The notes beneath the pieces are model-generated. The model saw only the letters and a program-made list of their open reading frames with translations. It was not told the origin of the DNA and ran no database searches. From assembly GCA_021161545.1 (NCBI GenBank), contig JAGHAJ010000277.1:1-5732 (forward strand): a stretch of DNA of 5,732 nucleotides, given 5' to 3'. Of this stretch, positions 1 through 5,732 are shown piece by piece. Position 1 is the stretch's first letter; each line of letters opens with the position of its first letter. A program made the translations under genes and the position numbers. Source of the stretch: Synergistota bacterium (GTDB taxonomy: Bacteria; Synergistota; JAGHAJ01).

Positions 1-1018
1 GGGAAACTGCATTCGACACAACCTTCCACACAACCTCCATTACCTTCTGTTCGTCAATACCTTCCTTATTGGCCATCTCTTTAATATCCCTCACAAACTT
101 AAGAGCAACGCTATCGGAGAAATCCTTCAAGACCCTTACACCATTGTGTATCTCAACACTCACACCCTCCCACAGCGATGAGACTGCACCATGCACATAC
201 TCAGAGATTTCTTTCTTGGAAGCATCAGTTATACCATCAAGACTCACTTCTATGCTTCTTACACTGTAATTTCCATACCTATCTGCAACGCCCCTGACCC
301 AATCATCCACAACCTTCCTATAATCCCCCGGAGTTATGCAGAGCTCTTCCTTTAAGTATATACGGGCAACGTCAACCGGTATGTAATCAACCTTCCCATC
401 TTCGAGATCAAACTCTATGATGTAGTGCAGACCATACTCGTCTTTTGCTATGGGCAGAGGAGAACCGGGATAAAACACATTATACTGCTTATCACAGCCC
501 CTTCTATGTATGTGTCCCAGAAAGACAAACGAAGGAGAAAATATCCTTATATCATCTGCCGTCAGTGGAAAGTATGCATTCTCATAGACCCCTCTTGCCC
601 CCTTCACCCAATCCCCGTGAGATACGAGAATCCACATCTTACCGGCAACCTCGCCATGTAGCATCTTTATGCATCCGTATAAACTCCCCCTTTCATCAGA
701 GGGATAGGGAACAAACATAAAGGGAACACCACCCACAACCTTAACTTCAGCTTCATCTATCAAGCAGACATTAGAAGAGCCCACATACTCAGAAGACAAC
801 TTTATATCATGATTCCCTCTGATAACATAGACAGGGACATCAAACCCAGAAAACAGCTCATCCAACAGAGTATGACTCCTGACACCTCTGTCCAGTATGT
901 CACCCGCAACAATCAGAACAGCATTCTCCGCTTCGGCTCTGCGGAGAATCCACTTCGCCACCTCATACCTCTCACCATAACCATCAATATGCCAGTCTGC
1001 TGTTATAACAACCTTCAT
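1..1018 (-). CDS. SbcD/Mre11-type metallophosphoesterase (DNA repair nuclease), 3' end missing
   Basis: Reading the minus strand from ATG at 1018 gives 339 codons with no stop, so the gene runs off the contig. The protein begins MKVVITADWH and carries every calcineurin-like phosphoesterase motif in order: D8-x-H10, G39-D40 (GDILDRG), G68-N-H-D71, S133-H-G-D136 and G168-H-I-H171. These residues bind two metal ions, and H70 is the expected catalytic histidine. The YPGSP motif after the last ligand (183-187) is typical of SbcD/Mre11 nucleases, which process DNA ends and hairpins with the SbcC/Rad50 ATPase. Family members are often about 380-420 residues, so perhaps 40-80 are missing. No SbcC/Rad50 gene is visible; it could lie beyond the left edge. 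The start is preceded by no Shine-Dalgarno sequence but by an extended -10 promoter. The phosphoesterase family is certain; the SbcD/Mre11 subfamily is likely, and another phosphoesterase branch is possible. Confidence 0.88.
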   Translation of the reverse strand, partial: MKVVITADWHIDGYGERYEVAKWILRRAEAENAVLIVAGDILDRGVRSHTLLDELFSGFDVPVYVIRGNHDIKLSSEYVGSSNVCLIDEAEVKVVGGVPFMFVPYPSDERGSLYGCIKMLHGEVAGKMWILVSHGDWVKGARGVYENAYFPLTADDIRIFSPSFVFLGHIHRRGCDKQYNVFYPGSPLPIAKDEYGLHYIIEFDLEDGKVDYIPVDVARIYLKEELCITPGDYRKVVDDWVRGVADRYGNYSVRSIEVSLDGITDASKKEISEYVHGAVSSLWEGVSVEIHNGVRVLKDFSDSVALKFVRDIKEMANKEGIDEQKVMEVVWKVVSNAVS

Positions 1019-1134: not shown

Positions 1135-1163
1135 TTGACATAATACCACCAAAGTGATAAAAT
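1135..1163 (+). promoter_or_regulatory. Sigma-70 type promoter of cstA
   Basis: TTGACA (1135-1140), a perfect -35 box, is followed after exactly 17 bp by TAAAAT (1158-1163), one base from the -10 consensus. Transcription would begin near 1170 and leave a leader of about 47 nt before the cstA start. A small inverted repeat, ACCTC-AGA-GAGGT (1166-1178), sits at the expected transcription start. I see no larger leader structure or riboswitch. The promoter also excludes upstream in-frame start codons such as GTG at 1154, which lies inside the spacer. Confidence 0.8.
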
Positions 1164-1216: not shown

Positions 1217-2971
1217 ATGACATCTGTTGTCGTTATTATAGGTGCTTTGATCTACATCGTAGCATACTTTACTTACGGTAAGATGTGGGAAAAGAAGGTC
1301 GTAAAGGCAGATCCAAACAGGGTTACACCGGCAAACAGACTGAACGACGGTGTGGACTACTATCCTGCAAAGACAGCGGTGCTTTACGGTCATCACTTTG
1401 CATCGATTGCAGGAGCAGGACCTATACTTGGTCCAGCAATAGCAATGGCCTGGGGATGGCTGCCATCTCTGCTGTGGGTGTGGTTTGGCAACATCTTCAT
1501 AGGGAGTATCCACGACTACATGGCACTGATGGCATCTGTCAGATACGATGGCAAGTCTATTCAGTGGGTTGCCGGTAAGATTATAAGCAAGAGAACCGGT
1601 TATTCATTCGAGCTGTTCATCTACGTTGCACTGCTGCTGGTCATTGCAGCATTTGCAGCAGTTGCAGCTAAGCTCTTCGTGAAGGTGCCAGCTTCTGCCA
1701 CCATATCGATGCTCTTTATACTCGTAGCACTGATTACTGGATTCATGCTCTACAAAACGAAGTTAGGGCTTGTTGGAGGAACCATCGTGGGATTGATACT
1801 GCTTATAGGCGCAATATGGTTCGGCTTCTACCATCCATGGAAGCTACCAAGAAGCACATGGCTTATAATCCTTCTAATTTACATCATCATAGCCTCGTCT
1901 TTACCAGTGTGGGTACTACTGCAACCAAGGGATTACCTGAACGCTTACCTACTGTGGACAGGGTTGATAATGGGTGGTCTTGCAATCATAATCACCCATC
2001 ACGGGTTCAACTGGGCATCTTCAACCATGTTCTCACCAAACATCATAGGGGGACAACCATCTCCATTCTGGCCTACCGTACCACTCATAATTGCATGCGG
2101 TTCCCTATCAGGATTCCATTCCATAGTGGCATCAGGAACATCGTCAAAGCAGCTTGACAAAGAGACCCACGGGCTCATCGTAGGATATGCTGGAATGTTC
2201 ACAGAGGGTTTCCTGTCCACAATAGTCATTGCATCCATTGGCGCATTTGGATTCATGGTGTTAAGCGGAGTTGCAAAGAAGGTTACAGGCCTGCACTTAG
2301 ACCTCACAAAGCTCCAGACAGACCCAATATATCTTGGACACTACTATCTCAAGGCAGCAAGTGCAGTTGGTGGTGCTTTAGGGATGTTTGTTGCAAGCTA
2401 CGGTAAGGCAGTTGGAGCTGGATTGGGCATACCTGCTGCATTCGGTAAGGTATTTGGAGCACTGTGGGTAACAGCGTTCATACTAACGACGCTCGACACA
2501 TCTACGAGGCTTGCAAGGTTCGCATGGGCAGAGATATGGGAACCAATCAAAAAAGGTTCACCCGCCCTATACAAGGCAGTGGCAAACAGATGGGTGGGTT
2601 CAGCGATAGCAGCAATACTTGGAGTTGGACTTGCAGCAAGCGGGAGCTACCTCGTGTTGTGGCCAGCATTCTCAGGCGCAAACCAGATGCTTGCATCCAT
2701 TGCAATGATTACGGCAGCTGTGTGGGTAAGAAATATACTCAAGGCAAAGAAGGCGTACCAGTACGCCATACTCGTGCCGGCATTTTTCCCCTGGATTACA
2801 GTAACAGTAGCGCTGATATGGTATCTAATCGTAGTAGTGCCTGTGCTGAAGTCTGCTATCCAGTATCCGGTTGGTGGATTTACAGTGTTGATGCTCATAC
2901 TCAACTTCCTGCTGATATCTGACTTCACAAAGGCGATGAGGAAGAATCCAGACTTGGAGCCAATAGAATAG
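1217..2971 (+). CDS. cstA: CstA-family peptide/pyruvate transporter
   Basis: A 584-residue, strongly hydrophobic integral membrane protein of the carbon starvation CstA family. Known members (E. coli CstA and BtsT) import peptides and/or pyruvate, with BtsT acting as a proton symporter. Visible family signatures are YGHHFASIAGAGPILGPA (57-74), the following WGWLP and IHDYMAL segment (79-104), GSLSGFHSIVASGTSSKQL (295-313), TTLDTSTRLARF (424-435) and LWPAFSGANQMLA (481-493). Many membrane helices span roughly 2-20, 60-105, 132-205, 213-260, 285-350, 380-425, 460-505 and 515-568. It is about 115-130 residues shorter than the E. coli proteins but similar to the compact versions I know from other bacteria and apparently full length. 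The start at 1217 is supported by the ribosome binding site and by the promoter position; upstream in-frame codons lie within the promoter. It has its own promoter and a hairpin downstream, so it looks monocistronic. No YbdD/YjiX-type small partner and no BtsS/BtsR-like regulator is adjacent. The actual substrate cannot be told from sequence. Confidence 0.95.
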   Translation: MTSVVVIIGALIYIVAYFTYGKMWEKKVVKADPNRVTPANRLNDGVDYYPAKTAVLYGHHFASIAGAGPILGPAIAMAWGWLPSLLWVWFGNIFIGSIHDYMALMASVRYDGKSIQWVAGKIISKRTGYSFELFIYVALLLVIAAFAAVAAKLFVKVPASATISMLFILVALITGFMLYKTKLGLVGGTIVGLILLIGAIWFGFYHPWKLPRSTWLIILLIYIIIASSLPVWVLLQPRDYLNAYLLWTGLIMGGLAIIITHHGFNWASSTMFSPNIIGGQPSPFWPTVPLIIACGSLSGFHSIVASGTSSKQLDKETHGLIVGYAGMFTEGFLSTIVIASIGAFGFMVLSGVAKKVTGLHLDLTKLQTDPIYLGHYYLKAASAVGGALGMFVASYGKAVGAGLGIPAAFGKVFGALWVTAFILTTLDTSTRLARFAWAEIWEPIKKGSPALYKAVANRWVGSAIAAILGVGLAASGSYLVLWPAFSGANQMLASIAMITAAVWVRNILKAKKAYQYAILVPAFFPWITVTVALIWYLIVVVPVLKSAIQYPVGGFTVLMLILNFLLISDFTKAMRKNPDLEPIE

Positions 2972-2999
2972 TTTAAGTGCCTTTAACCTCTTATTGAAG

Positions 3000-3022
3000 C
3001 GGGGGCTCCTAAAGGGCCCCCG
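3000..3022 (+). terminator. GC-rich hairpin after cstA, terminator or attenuator
   Basis: CGGGGGC (3000-3006) pairs perfectly with GCCCCCG (3016-3022). A U-G and a C-G pair extend the stem to 9 bp around a 5-base loop. It begins 28 bases after the cstA stop. The following bases (TAACGATTTCTTGG) contain no run of T, so termination may be partial, or may need a factor. Because no clear promoter is seen before the next gene at 3055, read-through from cstA into the downstream operon is possible. Confidence 0.55.
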
Positions 3023-3054
3023 TAACGATTTCTTGGAGAAAGAAGGTTGTAAAA

Positions 3055-3327
3055 TTGACTAAAGACAAGATACGCGGCTTCTTTAAGAGCATATTCTCAG
3101 GCCTCGAGGAGAGTTCCACTTCCATCATAGAAAAAGACCTGCAGGAAACAGAAAATGTCTTTGCAATAATAACCACAGGTGCATTCATAGGTATTCCTCT
3201 ACCATCAACAGGAATACTGTTAAGGATATTACCATACATGCAAAGGGAGATATTTGTGATGACAAAGAGGAGTAGAGAGATGGATGATGTGTTTGGAGAG
3301 ATAGCAGGGATGTTCGATATAGACTAA
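3055..3327 (+). CDS. Small putative membrane protein, first gene of the ArsA-like operon
   Basis: A 90-residue protein that I cannot assign to a named family. It starts at TTG 3055, with AGAAGG (3041-3046) 8 bases upstream. Residues 1-33 are charged and probably helical (KIRGFFKSIFSGLEE). Residues 34-60 form a hydrophobic segment broken by Gly and Pro: GAFIGIPLPSTG (42-53) followed by LLRILPYM (55-62). Residues 63-80 are rich in Arg, Lys and Glu, and the tail is acidic (DDVFGEIAGMFDID). The segment could be one membrane helix or a re-entrant hairpin. From memory, similar short proteins with a GxPxPxxxxLRLLPY pattern occur in archaea; this is recollection, not a search. The gene ends 12 bases before the ATPase gene, and its TAA overlaps that gene's Shine-Dalgarno sequence (TAAGGAGG), which suggests coupled translation. 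It may be a membrane partner or anchor for the ATPase; that is inference. Confidence 0.75.
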   Translation: MTKDKIRGFFKSIFSGLEESSTSIIEKDLQETENVFAIITTGAFIGIPLPSTGILLRILPYMQREIFVMTKRSREMDDVFGEIAGMFDID

Positions 3328-3332
3328 GGAGG
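3326..3332 (+). promoter_or_regulatory. Strong ribosome binding site of the ArsA-like gene
   Basis: AAGGAGG overlaps the stop codon of the preceding gene and lies 7 bases before ATG 3340. An in-frame TTG at 3334 is only 1 base from it and therefore too close, which fixes the start at 3340. Confidence 0.8.
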
Positions 3333-3339
3333 CTTGCCT

Positions 3340-4302
3340 ATGGATATAATTTTCGTATTGGGAAAGGGTGGTGTGGGTAAAACCACTATATCAGCAGCGA
3401 TAGGTGTGGGTATGGCAAAAGAAGGAAAAACCGTATTTCTGAGCTCACTGGACCCTGCACACAACCTTGGAGATGCGCTCTCCATGGAGCTTTCAAGCAG
3501 GGCTGCAAGTGTGGAAAGAGGGTTAACGGCAACCGAGATAGACACAGAATCCGTGATAAGAGAATATCTTTCAGACATGACGCAAAAACTGAAGACCACT
3601 TACAGATACCTTTCTACCTTAAATCTGGACAGATACTTTGATATTTTGAAACACTCACCCGGCATAGAGGAGTACGCAATATTAGAATCTATACAGAAGA
3701 CCATCAACAACGAGAAGGCCGACATCCTCATCTTTGACACCCCTCCCACGGGTATAACGCAAAAAGTGCTTGCACTACCAAAACTCACACTCATCTGGGT
3801 AGAAAGGCTCATAAAGATGAGGAAGAGCATCTTGAGCAAGAGACAGATGATAAAGAATGTCAGAGGAGAATACTCTGCGGTTGTGGGAGACGAAACCATT
3901 GAGCTACCAACAGAAGAAGACAAAGACGACATAATGACAGAGCTGAAAAAATATGGGAGAGAGCTGCATGAGATAGACAGCATACTCTCATCTCAAAGGG
4001 CGACCGTGTATATAGTGACACTCCCGGAAGAACTCTCGTTGTTTGAGACAGACCGCATACTCAGATTTATGAAGGAGTTCAAAATCCATGTAGGTGGTAT
4101 ATTCCTGAACAAAGTCCTGCACATAGACAACCCTCCAAGAGAGATAGCCGGAAAGCTCAAGGAACAAGAATATGTAATATCGGAGATGAACAAAAGGTTC
4201 ACAGGCATAAAAATAACGGAGATACCGCTCCTCGAAAGCTCACCAAGGGGCACAGATGCCTTGTATCGCCTATACAAGGGACACATAGAGGAAGGGTTGT
4301 GA
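3340..4302 (+). CDS. ArsA/GET3-family ATPase
   Basis: A 320-residue, single-domain P-loop ATPase of the ArsA/GET3 (TRC40) branch of the SIMIBI class. It has the deviant Walker A motif GKGGVGKTT (8-16) with signature lysine K9 and K14, switch I DPAHNLGDA (38-46), switch II FDTPPTG (132-138) leading into ITQKVLALP (139-147), and the PEELSLFETDRI segment (229-240) followed by FLNKV (255-259), which matches the family's ETER and nucleotide-base regions. Residues about 148-215 form the variable, partly hydrophobic and charged helical subdomain. In relatives such dimers deliver tail-anchored membrane proteins (GET3) or drive arsenite export (ArsA). The protein has no cysteine at all, so it lacks the GET3 zinc-binding CxxC and the metalloid-binding cysteines of ArsA. 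No arsB, arsR or arsD gene is nearby, so arsenic resistance is unlikely. It is embedded between two putative membrane proteins and a DUF59-like protein, which points to a role at the membrane or in protein or cluster delivery. Family is certain, substrate unknown. Confidence 0.93.
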   Translation: MDIIFVLGKGGVGKTTISAAIGVGMAKEGKTVFLSSLDPAHNLGDALSMELSSRAASVERGLTATEIDTESVIREYLSDMTQKLKTTYRYLSTLNLDRYFDILKHSPGIEEYAILESIQKTINNEKADILIFDTPPTGITQKVLALPKLTLIWVERLIKMRKSILSKRQMIKNVRGEYSAVVGDETIELPTEEDKDDIMTELKKYGRELHEIDSILSSQRATVYIVTLPEELSLFETDRILRFMKEFKIHVGGIFLNKVLHIDNPPREIAGKLKEQEYVISEMNKRFTGIKITEIPLLESSPRGTDALYRLYKGHIEEGL

Positions 4303-4303
4303 G

Positions 4304-4600
4304 TTGCGATACACGGACAAGGAGGTTTTACAGAGGGTAACGGAGGTCCTCTCAACCATAAAGGAACCAATTACATATATGGACATCGTCTCTGCTGGAA
4401 TGGTCAGGAAGGTAGAGGTAAATCAGCCATATATAAAAATATACCTCAAAAACATATACAGAACAAGCAGGTCTCCAGCGGCGTTTTTGGTGTCTTCACG
4501 CATACTTCAGAGGGTAGCAGAAAAGATAGAAGAGAGGCTCTTTGAAAACAGGCTCACACAGGTTGAAATAATAGATGAAGGGGGAATAAGACTGATATGA
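4304..4600 (+). CDS. DUF59/MIP18-like small protein without cysteine
   Basis: A 98-residue soluble protein starting at TTG 4304, one base after the ATPase stop, with GAGGAAGGG (4288-4296) 7 bases upstream. Its order of elements resembles the DUF59/MIP18 (SufT, Mrp N-terminal) domain: an N-terminal helix EVLQRVTEVLSTI (7-19), a turn with YMDIVSAGMVRKVEV (25-39) comparable to the family's DIVDLGLVYDVEV, a strand YIKIYL (43-48), then SRSPAAFLVSSRILQRVAEKIEERL (55-79) in place of the family's TxPxCPL helix, and a last strand QVEIIDEGG (86-94). The family usually carries a conserved cysteine in iron-sulfur cluster assembly; here that position appears to be alanine and the protein has no cysteine. 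A DUF59 domain is fused or paired with deviant-Walker ATPases in the Mrp/ApbC family, so finding it next to an ArsA-like ATPase is suggestive. The assignment is by eye from motif pattern and should be treated as probable only. Confidence 0.8.
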   Translation: MRYTDKEVLQRVTEVLSTIKEPITYMDIVSAGMVRKVEVNQPYIKIYLKNIYRTSRSPAAFLVSSRILQRVAEKIEERLFENRLTQVEIIDEGGIRLI

Positions 4601-5229
4601 ACAATGTAGTAATGATAATGCTCGTGCTTGGAGCAGTGGTAACACTTCAATTCTTCAAGGGCAGGAAGATAAACCTGATGATAATGGAGCACTATGCAAA
4701 GAAGTTTGAAAAGCTGTTGCGTCCCAAGGACCAGCTTTATACATGGCTGGGTGGATACATAGGGTTCAGAGTAAATTACGAGATAGACTCAGAGACGCTT
4801 GAAAAGATAGAAATGACACTTACCCTTCTACCACGACACAGCGTGTTGTATATGCCTGTTTCTTTAATCACAGCACGGCATGACAAACTCTATGTGGTAT
4901 TCAGACCAAAGAGAAAAGTAAGAACAGACATTCAAATCATAAGGAAGGGTTACTATATATTTAAGCCGAGGATAGAAGAGGAACCCTACTTGCAGAAAGA
5001 GGTTTTAGAAGTAAACGGTAAAAAGTTTACCATCATGTACAGAGAGAGAAAAGAGTTTGACAGGTTCTTCAAGAGGATAAAGGATATTTTCGATATGGCA
5101 AGGGTAATCCACATAGCACTCGTGAGTAGAACGAATGTGCTTTATGTCTTTTTGAGACCATCTGCAGACGACACTCCCAGAGAGATAAGAAAAGCAGCTG
5201 AGAGCATAGAAAAGTTGATACAGGTATAA
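4597..5229 (+). CDS. Membrane-anchored protein of unknown function, last gene of the operon
   Basis: A 210-residue protein whose ATG overlaps the preceding stop (ATGA, 4597-4600), so translation is probably coupled. Residues 4-20 form one hydrophobic helix followed directly by KGRK, which predicts that the remainder is cytoplasmic. No signal-peptidase site is evident. After a basic helix (EHYAKKFEKLLRPKDQ, 31-46) comes the striking YTWLGGYIGFRVNY (48-61), then mixed helix/strand sequence and a basic, charged C-terminal half. Two segments resemble each other: VSLITARHDKLYVVFRPK (88-105) and IALVSRTNVLYVFLRPS (173-189), suggesting a duplicated fold. I do not recognise a named family. I have a vague memory of archaeal membrane proteins with a similar TWxGGYxGF segment, which was not checked. 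Its position suggests that it works at the membrane with the ArsA-like ATPase, perhaps as a docking protein; this is inference. It ends 13 bases before the convergent 5S gene. Confidence 0.85.
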   Translation: MNNVVMIMLVLGAVVTLQFFKGRKINLMIMEHYAKKFEKLLRPKDQLYTWLGGYIGFRVNYEIDSETLEKIEMTLTLLPRHSVLYMPVSLITARHDKLYVVFRPKRKVRTDIQIIRKGYYIFKPRIEEEPYLQKEVLEVNGKKFTIMYRERKEFDRFFKRIKDIFDMARVIHIALVSRTNVLYVFLRPSADDTPREIRKAAESIEKLIQV

Positions 5230-5412: not shown

Positions 5413-5705
<293 letters not shown>

Positions 5706-5732
5706 TTCCGTGGGCGTAGGAAAGTTGAGGAG

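Follow-up and report, generated by a model that had tools for sequence, protein, structure and literature searches.

In the window, that is, the whole 5732-nucleotide stretch of the Synergistota contig analyzed here, the compact gene group around an ArsA/Get3-type ATPase is part of a five-gene operon (1217–5229) with the order CstA–CstX–ATPase–(DUF59)–CstY, which begins one gene before the start assigned to it in the first-pass annotation. The operon is best accounted for by the CstA-family transporter gene, missed in that annotation, and the unit is interpreted, with moderate confidence, as a CstA uptake transporter with a dedicated ATP-driven accessory complex, which would energize or gate uptake. 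The combination of an ArsA homologue with CstA, CstX, and CstY was reported earlier (Castillo & Saier 2010, PMC2963123), and the original suggestion that the system is undescribed had to be abandoned; the DUF59 member, the occurrence of CstY in several bacterial phyla, the cases of loss in which CstY remains with CstA, and the fold of CstY are new.

Composition of the operon

Re-derivation from the sequence confirmed the four packed genes, with all of the previously assigned coordinates and spacings being exact. The features of the operon and its flanks were as follows:

2–1018, minus strand: SbcD-like metallophosphoesterase gene, divergent from CstA
1135–1163, plus strand: candidate promoter upstream of CstA, TTGACA-17-TAAAAT (extended −10), 11/12 consensus matches
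1217–2971, plus strand: CstA-family transporter gene, 584 aa, first gene of the unit (PF02554, 1.1e-129)
2997–3024, plus strand: GC-rich hairpin in the CstA–CstX gap, lacking the T-run typical of intrinsic terminators
3055–3327, plus strand: CstX gene (orf1), TTG start, 90 aa, 12-bp gap to the ATPase gene
3340–4302, plus strand: ATPase gene, ATG start, 320 aa, 1-bp gap to the DUF59-like gene
4304–4600, plus strand: DUF59-like gene, TTG start, 98 aa, 4-bp overlap (ATGA) with orf4
4597–5229, plus strand: CstY gene (orf4), ATG start, 210 aa
5242–5732, minus strand: 5S and partial 23S rRNA genes, just past the operon
5668–5695 and 5705–5732: arms of a perfect inverted repeat at the contig end, within the 23S rRNA gene; the repeat (5668–5732) is probably a fold-back assembly artefact

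The distance from the end of CstA to the start of CstX was 83 bp. The RNA fold of the region including the hairpin (2965–3060) had a value of −32 kcal/mol (z −3.3), and the hairpin was not called as a terminator in terminator prediction. It should be noted that the candidate promoter is a consensus match only, with 8 such sites found in the region versus 7.8 expected. The cysteine count was zero in all four products of the packed genes, namely, CstX, the ATPase, the DUF59-like protein, and CstY.

The ATPase matched ArsA_ATPase (PF02374) with one domain (E-value = 4.6e-58) and GET3_arsA_TRC40 (TIGR00345) with 194 bits at a cut-off of 135, and its P-loop, DPAHN, and DT(P/A)PTG motifs were conserved, in agreement with its first designation as a single-domain, cysteine-free protein of the ArsA/Get3 type. 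The nearest solved relative was archaeal Get3 3zq6 (8.6e-47), and archaeal Get3 stood ahead of ArsA. The archaeal Get3 proteins 3zq6 and 3ug6, its closest solved relatives, are likewise single-domain ATPases; however, the window protein has no cysteine, shares its operon with CstA, and, according to the alignment, has a longer hydrophilic stretch in the helical subdomain, where that of the archaeal proteins is shorter. The region in which Get3/TRC40 has its hydrophobic client groove and TRC40 insert differed in the alignment between the window ATPase and 3zq6 and 3ug6. The CxxC zinc site of the eukaryotic-type Get3/TRC40 dimer is absent from the cysteine-free window ATPase. In PHROGs, the ATPase gave no more than a generic match to ParA, and there was no sign of phage origin.

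The CstX protein contains a single borderline hydrophobic stretch (residues 38–56, KD 1.64) and a GIPxPxT turn, and since the stretch is borderline, the designation of CstX as a membrane protein is less sure. Thus, of the two membrane proteins proposed in the first-pass annotation, orf4 was upheld, its product CstY having a clear N-terminal transmembrane helix (residues 1–23, KD 2.06) followed by a cytosolic domain, and orf1 became less certain. A CstX homologue was located directly upstream of the ATPase gene in nearly all relatives. In a direct scan, all 16 aligned CstX members matched NF041419 ("cory-CC-star", NCBIfam; best E-value 8e-16, E up to 0.1), with the window CstX alone giving only 0.013; a search of six close genomes with NF041419 failed to detect CstX, and comparison of the CstX profile with PDB sequences gave nothing useful. 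In a CstX–ATPase read-through model (stop codon as a residue, first row L067), the pLDDT of the ATPase was mostly >90 and CstX was helical, the model being uninformative on binding. The identification of CstX with Asterix, both being partners of about 100 aa, was rejected, as it had no Pfam support and the predicted helix pattern differed. The two long frames that surround CstX in L100 and L101 proved not to be ATPase fusions. Some Thermococcaceae (L032:3032–3307, L034:4139–4420) carry a second, diverged CstX copy immediately ahead of the usual one, as reported for T. kodakarensis.

The DUF59-like protein matched PF01883 with 24.6 bits, barely above the cut-off of 23.5, and the same family matched 19 of the 20 members of this protein group; no solved relative was found using phmmer. 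The gene is an optional member of the unit, being present within it on the same strand in 18 of the 43 loci described below, as well as in the window. Cysteines are missing from the copies of the window, Thermococcales, and Caldisericota, and with them the conserved reactive cysteine of the DUF59/MIP18 cluster-assembly proteins, while a pair is retained in those of Archaeoglobales. The DUF59 protein is more likely to act as a structural helper than in cluster transfer. In some Archaeoglobus, a DUF59 gene encoding two cysteines is located beside CstY on the opposite strand (L048:6706–6987, L052:6587–6868, L053:6647–6934).

Distribution and shared history of the unit

Scanning of prokaryotic genomes with the CstY alignment yielded 43 loci; no relatives were found in the genome-contig scan with the window ATPase alone. 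The archaeal loci belonged to Thermococcales, Archaeoglobales, Thermoplasmatota, Methanoliparum, Desulfurococcales, and another Thermoproteota, and the bacterial loci to Caldisericota, Chloroflexota, Synergistota, and Halanaerobiales. The order CstX–ATPase–(DUF59)–CstY was kept in nearly all of them and, since it recurs across phyla and in both prokaryotic domains, the arrangement is not a matter of chance. The idea of a conserved system was thus borne out by the same order in Thermococcales, Archaeoglobales, Caldisericota, Chloroflexota, and others, and the confinement of the genes to the lineage of the window, which would have argued against a system, was not observed.

The presence of CstA beside the unit was revealed by clustering of the flanking genes. 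Upstream sequence of 3.5 kb or more was available for 33 CstY loci; among these, CstA adjoined CstY in 32 (31 on the same strand), and CstX together with the ATPase was kept in 30. In 185 Synergistota genomes, CstA was detected in 166 and CstX in 58. It should be noted that CstX–ATPase pairs without adjacent CstA occur in the Synergistota families f4 and f6 (L090–L098), which contradicts the literature, according to which CstX always accompanies CstA.

In the description by Castillo & Saier 2010, the CstA operons contain a single-domain ArsA homologue of ~330 aa and CstX of ~90 aa, with no ars genes, and CstY of ~210 aa is listed only in five archaea; the ArsA homologues were proposed, from the data of those authors, to energize CstA together with CstX and CstY, CstX being the linker (PMC2963123). 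The window fits this system in the sizes of the proteins (90, 320, and 210 aa), their order, the taxa, and the presence of CstA in the operon, and homologues in the same order were found in Thermococcus, a genus of the original description. The differences consist in the occurrence of CstY in several bacterial phyla, the extra DUF59 gene, which is absent from that description (PMC2963123), the fold of CstY, and the CstX–ATPase pairs without adjacent CstA.

The CstA subtypes were indistinguishable by Pfam, and a tree was used instead. In this tree, the CstAs of CstY loci were split from the CstAs without CstY with a support of 100, the latter being represented by only five sequences (few outgroups). 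The CstAs of the window and GBS-1 grouped with Caldisericota, and that of Acetomicrobium with Halanaerobiales, all in a clade that was mostly archaeal, suggesting that the unit has moved between phyla. The tree-distance correlations, which were not corrected for shared ancestry, amounted to 0.92 for CstY–CstA, 0.82 for ATPase–CstY, 0.81 for ATPase–CstA, and 0.62 for CstX–ATPase, those involving CstX being lower (0.5–0.6), at a permuted maximum of about 0.3–0.4. The shared history of CstA and CstY, as well as the gene order, family assignments, catalytic motifs, and absence of cysteine, is read directly from the sequences.

Two loci, in both of which the CstA–CstY stretch was fully sequenced, have lost part of the unit. 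In a Halanaerobiales genome (L063), intact CstA and CstY genes flank a 75-codon remnant of the ATPase gene without the P-loop (L063:5758–5982), and no CstX was found. In L065, a euryarchaeal draft genome, CstX and the ATPase are both gone, with CstA and CstY still side by side. Neither CstX nor an intact ATPase of this clade was found elsewhere in these two genomes, both of which are drafts, so that absence elsewhere is unproven. The same pattern, CstY with CstA after the loss of CstX and the ATPase, was reported for Hyperthermus butylicus (PMC2963123). Since CstY stays with CstA after such losses, it is tied to CstA, and CstX and the ATPase constitute a second, separable pair.

Structural relationships of CstY

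The AlphaFold2 model of CstY had a mean pLDDT of 92.6 and a pTM of 0.87; comparison of the CstY profile with PDB sequences gave nothing useful. In a Foldseek search against all solved structures, the top matches of the model were 7tm3_4 (E-value = 4.2e-07), 9i78_4 (5.4e-06), and 6w6l_7 (1.7e-03), chains from eukaryotic multipass and SND3 translocons, followed by TtfA. The search named entries only, and the identity of the matched chains as CCDC47 was deduced from the contents of the complexes (PMC9630114, PMC12572126) and from a separate Pfam signal. Alignment of CstY with 7tm3_4 using VIA-align gave Z = 17.4 over 207 of 210 residues (rmsd 2.8, identity 8%), the other two translocon chains (9i78 and 6w6l) giving Z of 15.4 and 10.8; TtfA (6t84) reached 11.0, and the next rows did not exceed 8.3.

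The Pfam family CCDC47 (PF07946) matched 10 of 44 CstY sequences (best E-value 1.6e-4), and each of the other matching families was found in one member only. The CstY of L045 scored 19.5 bits, with an order of helix and domain consistent with CCDC47. In 25 genomes, no match was above the curated cut-off of PF07946 (27.7 bits), and for this reason, CstY was not filed as a CCDC47 member. The predicted model and the Pfam signal provide good evidence that CstY and CCDC47 of the PAT complex share a fold and a topology, namely, an N-terminal membrane helix followed by a cytosolic domain, and the evidence for their common descent is suggestive. However, CCDC47 is longer than CstY, the identity is 4–10%, and the Pfam score is under the cut-off. 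No match to Asterix, the partner of CCDC47, was obtained in Pfam scans of the four proteins.

TtfA is a membrane-anchored cofactor of the MmpL3 transporter with an N-terminal membrane helix and a cytoplasmic domain (PMC6593404). This mycobacterial protein has in common with CstY the predicted fold, the layout, and the partnership with a large transporter, which is itself predicted for CstY, whereas its structural score is below that of CCDC47, MmpL3 is unrelated to CstA, and no ArsA/Get3 ATPase has been described in the MmpL3 complex. Since TtfA is a transporter cofactor with the CstY/CCDC47 fold, this fold serves biogenesis as well as transport.

Possible function of the unit

In the proposed mechanism, CstY, anchored by its one helix, would be situated on the cytosolic face of CstA as a constant partner, and CstX would recruit the ATPase, presumably a homodimer by analogy with Get3 and ArsA, to the membrane; the DUF59 protein would be a helper on the ATPase. 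By analogy with ArsA and ArsB, ATP binding and hydrolysis would energize or gate the uptake of pyruvate or small peptides by CstA, these substrates being those known for the CstA family. We infer a physical complex, this substrate range, and the coupling of ATP hydrolysis to transport instead of CstA assembly. The linkage of CstA with CstY, the conservation of CstX and the ATPase beside them in archaea and several bacterial phyla, the split in the CstA tree, the tree-distance correlations, the loss cases, the parallel with TtfA, and the same model proposed by Castillo & Saier argue for an accessory complex of this kind. On the other hand, the best structural match of CstY is a biogenesis factor and not a transporter subunit, CstA is found in far more Synergistota genomes than CstX, and the CstX–ATPase pair stands apart from CstA in several Synergistota families, where it may have another partner. 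Many bacterial CstAs are secondary transporters without such an ATPase, which also counts against energizing.

The main rival reading, more novel than energizing, is that the ATPase, CstX, and CstY act as a chaperone or insertase devoted to CstA, a protein of many helices, in the manner of the GET ATPase and a CCDC47-like partner of the eukaryotic multipass translocon; its probability is considered rather low. The membrane delivery suggested in the first-pass annotation was retained in this form, the CCDC47 fold of CstY speaking for it, and energizing or gating of CstA was preferred. In addition to the structural matches of CstY to three translocon structures (Z of 17.4, 15.4, and 10.8) and the Pfam CCDC47 matches, the assembly reading agrees with archaeal Get3 being closer to the ATPase than ArsA among solved structures and with the hydrophobic segment in CstX; however, the Pfam matches are under the curated cut-off, an Asterix-like partner did not turn up, TtfA has this fold as well, and most CstAs are produced without CstX, ATPase, or CstY genes. 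Its extension, according to which CstY is a true prokaryotic CCDC47 relative and the operon a simple Get3-type ATP-driven chaperone or insertase, a prokaryotic counterpart and perhaps forerunner of the PAT/multipass system, is unlikely. The ATPase could also be a MinD/ParA-like switch, which would sense cell energy or a metabolite and, via CstX and CstY, inhibit CstA or release it, but would not power it. SIMIBI ATPases are often membrane-recruited switches, CstA operates in many genomes that have no such ATPase, and loss of CstX and the ATPase can leave CstA and CstY in place; nevertheless, no sensor domain was found, no positive evidence sets such a switch apart from energizing, and this reading is judged quite improbable.

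Roles in iron–sulfur cluster delivery and arsenite export were set aside because there is no cysteine in the four proteins. Mrp and HCF101 are fusions of a DUF59 domain with a SIMIBI ATPase, and the DUF59 copies in or beside Archaeoglobales operons keep cysteines, as would suit an Mrp/ApbC-like carrier with DUF59 as a partner; however, the ATPase belongs to the ArsA/Get3 family and not to Mrp, and the CxxC cluster site of Mrp/ApbC carriers is absent from the window ATPase. In addition, the DUF59 proteins of the window, Thermococcales, and Caldisericota are cysteine-free, and about half of the loci are without DUF59. Thus, the cluster-carrier function considered in the first-pass annotation is very improbable and was dropped. 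Arsenite export, already regarded there as unlikely, has a practically negligible probability. The ArsA of ArsAB shares with the window protein the ArsA_ATPase domain and the notion that an ATPase docks onto a transporter, but it has two tandem ATPase domains and metalloid cysteines, in place of one domain and none, and serves a different transporter. The neighbor in the window is CstA, with arsB, acr3, and arsR absent within the window, and the absence of ars genes from such operons was also reported earlier (PMC2963123).

Prokaryotes have been stated to lack PAT components (PMC9630114), and the PAT complex to be without obvious bacterial homologues (PMC13261788). The linkage of a protein predicted to have the fold of CCDC47 with a Get3-type ATPase and a multi-helix transporter, seen in archaea and bacteria, would make the origin of the PAT complex testable in cultivable organisms. 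If the ATPase powers or gates CstA, then another kind of transporter, beside ArsB, would be driven by an ArsA/Get3 ATPase, which would bear on nutrient uptake in hyperthermophiles (Thermococcus, Archaeoglobus) and in Synergistota.
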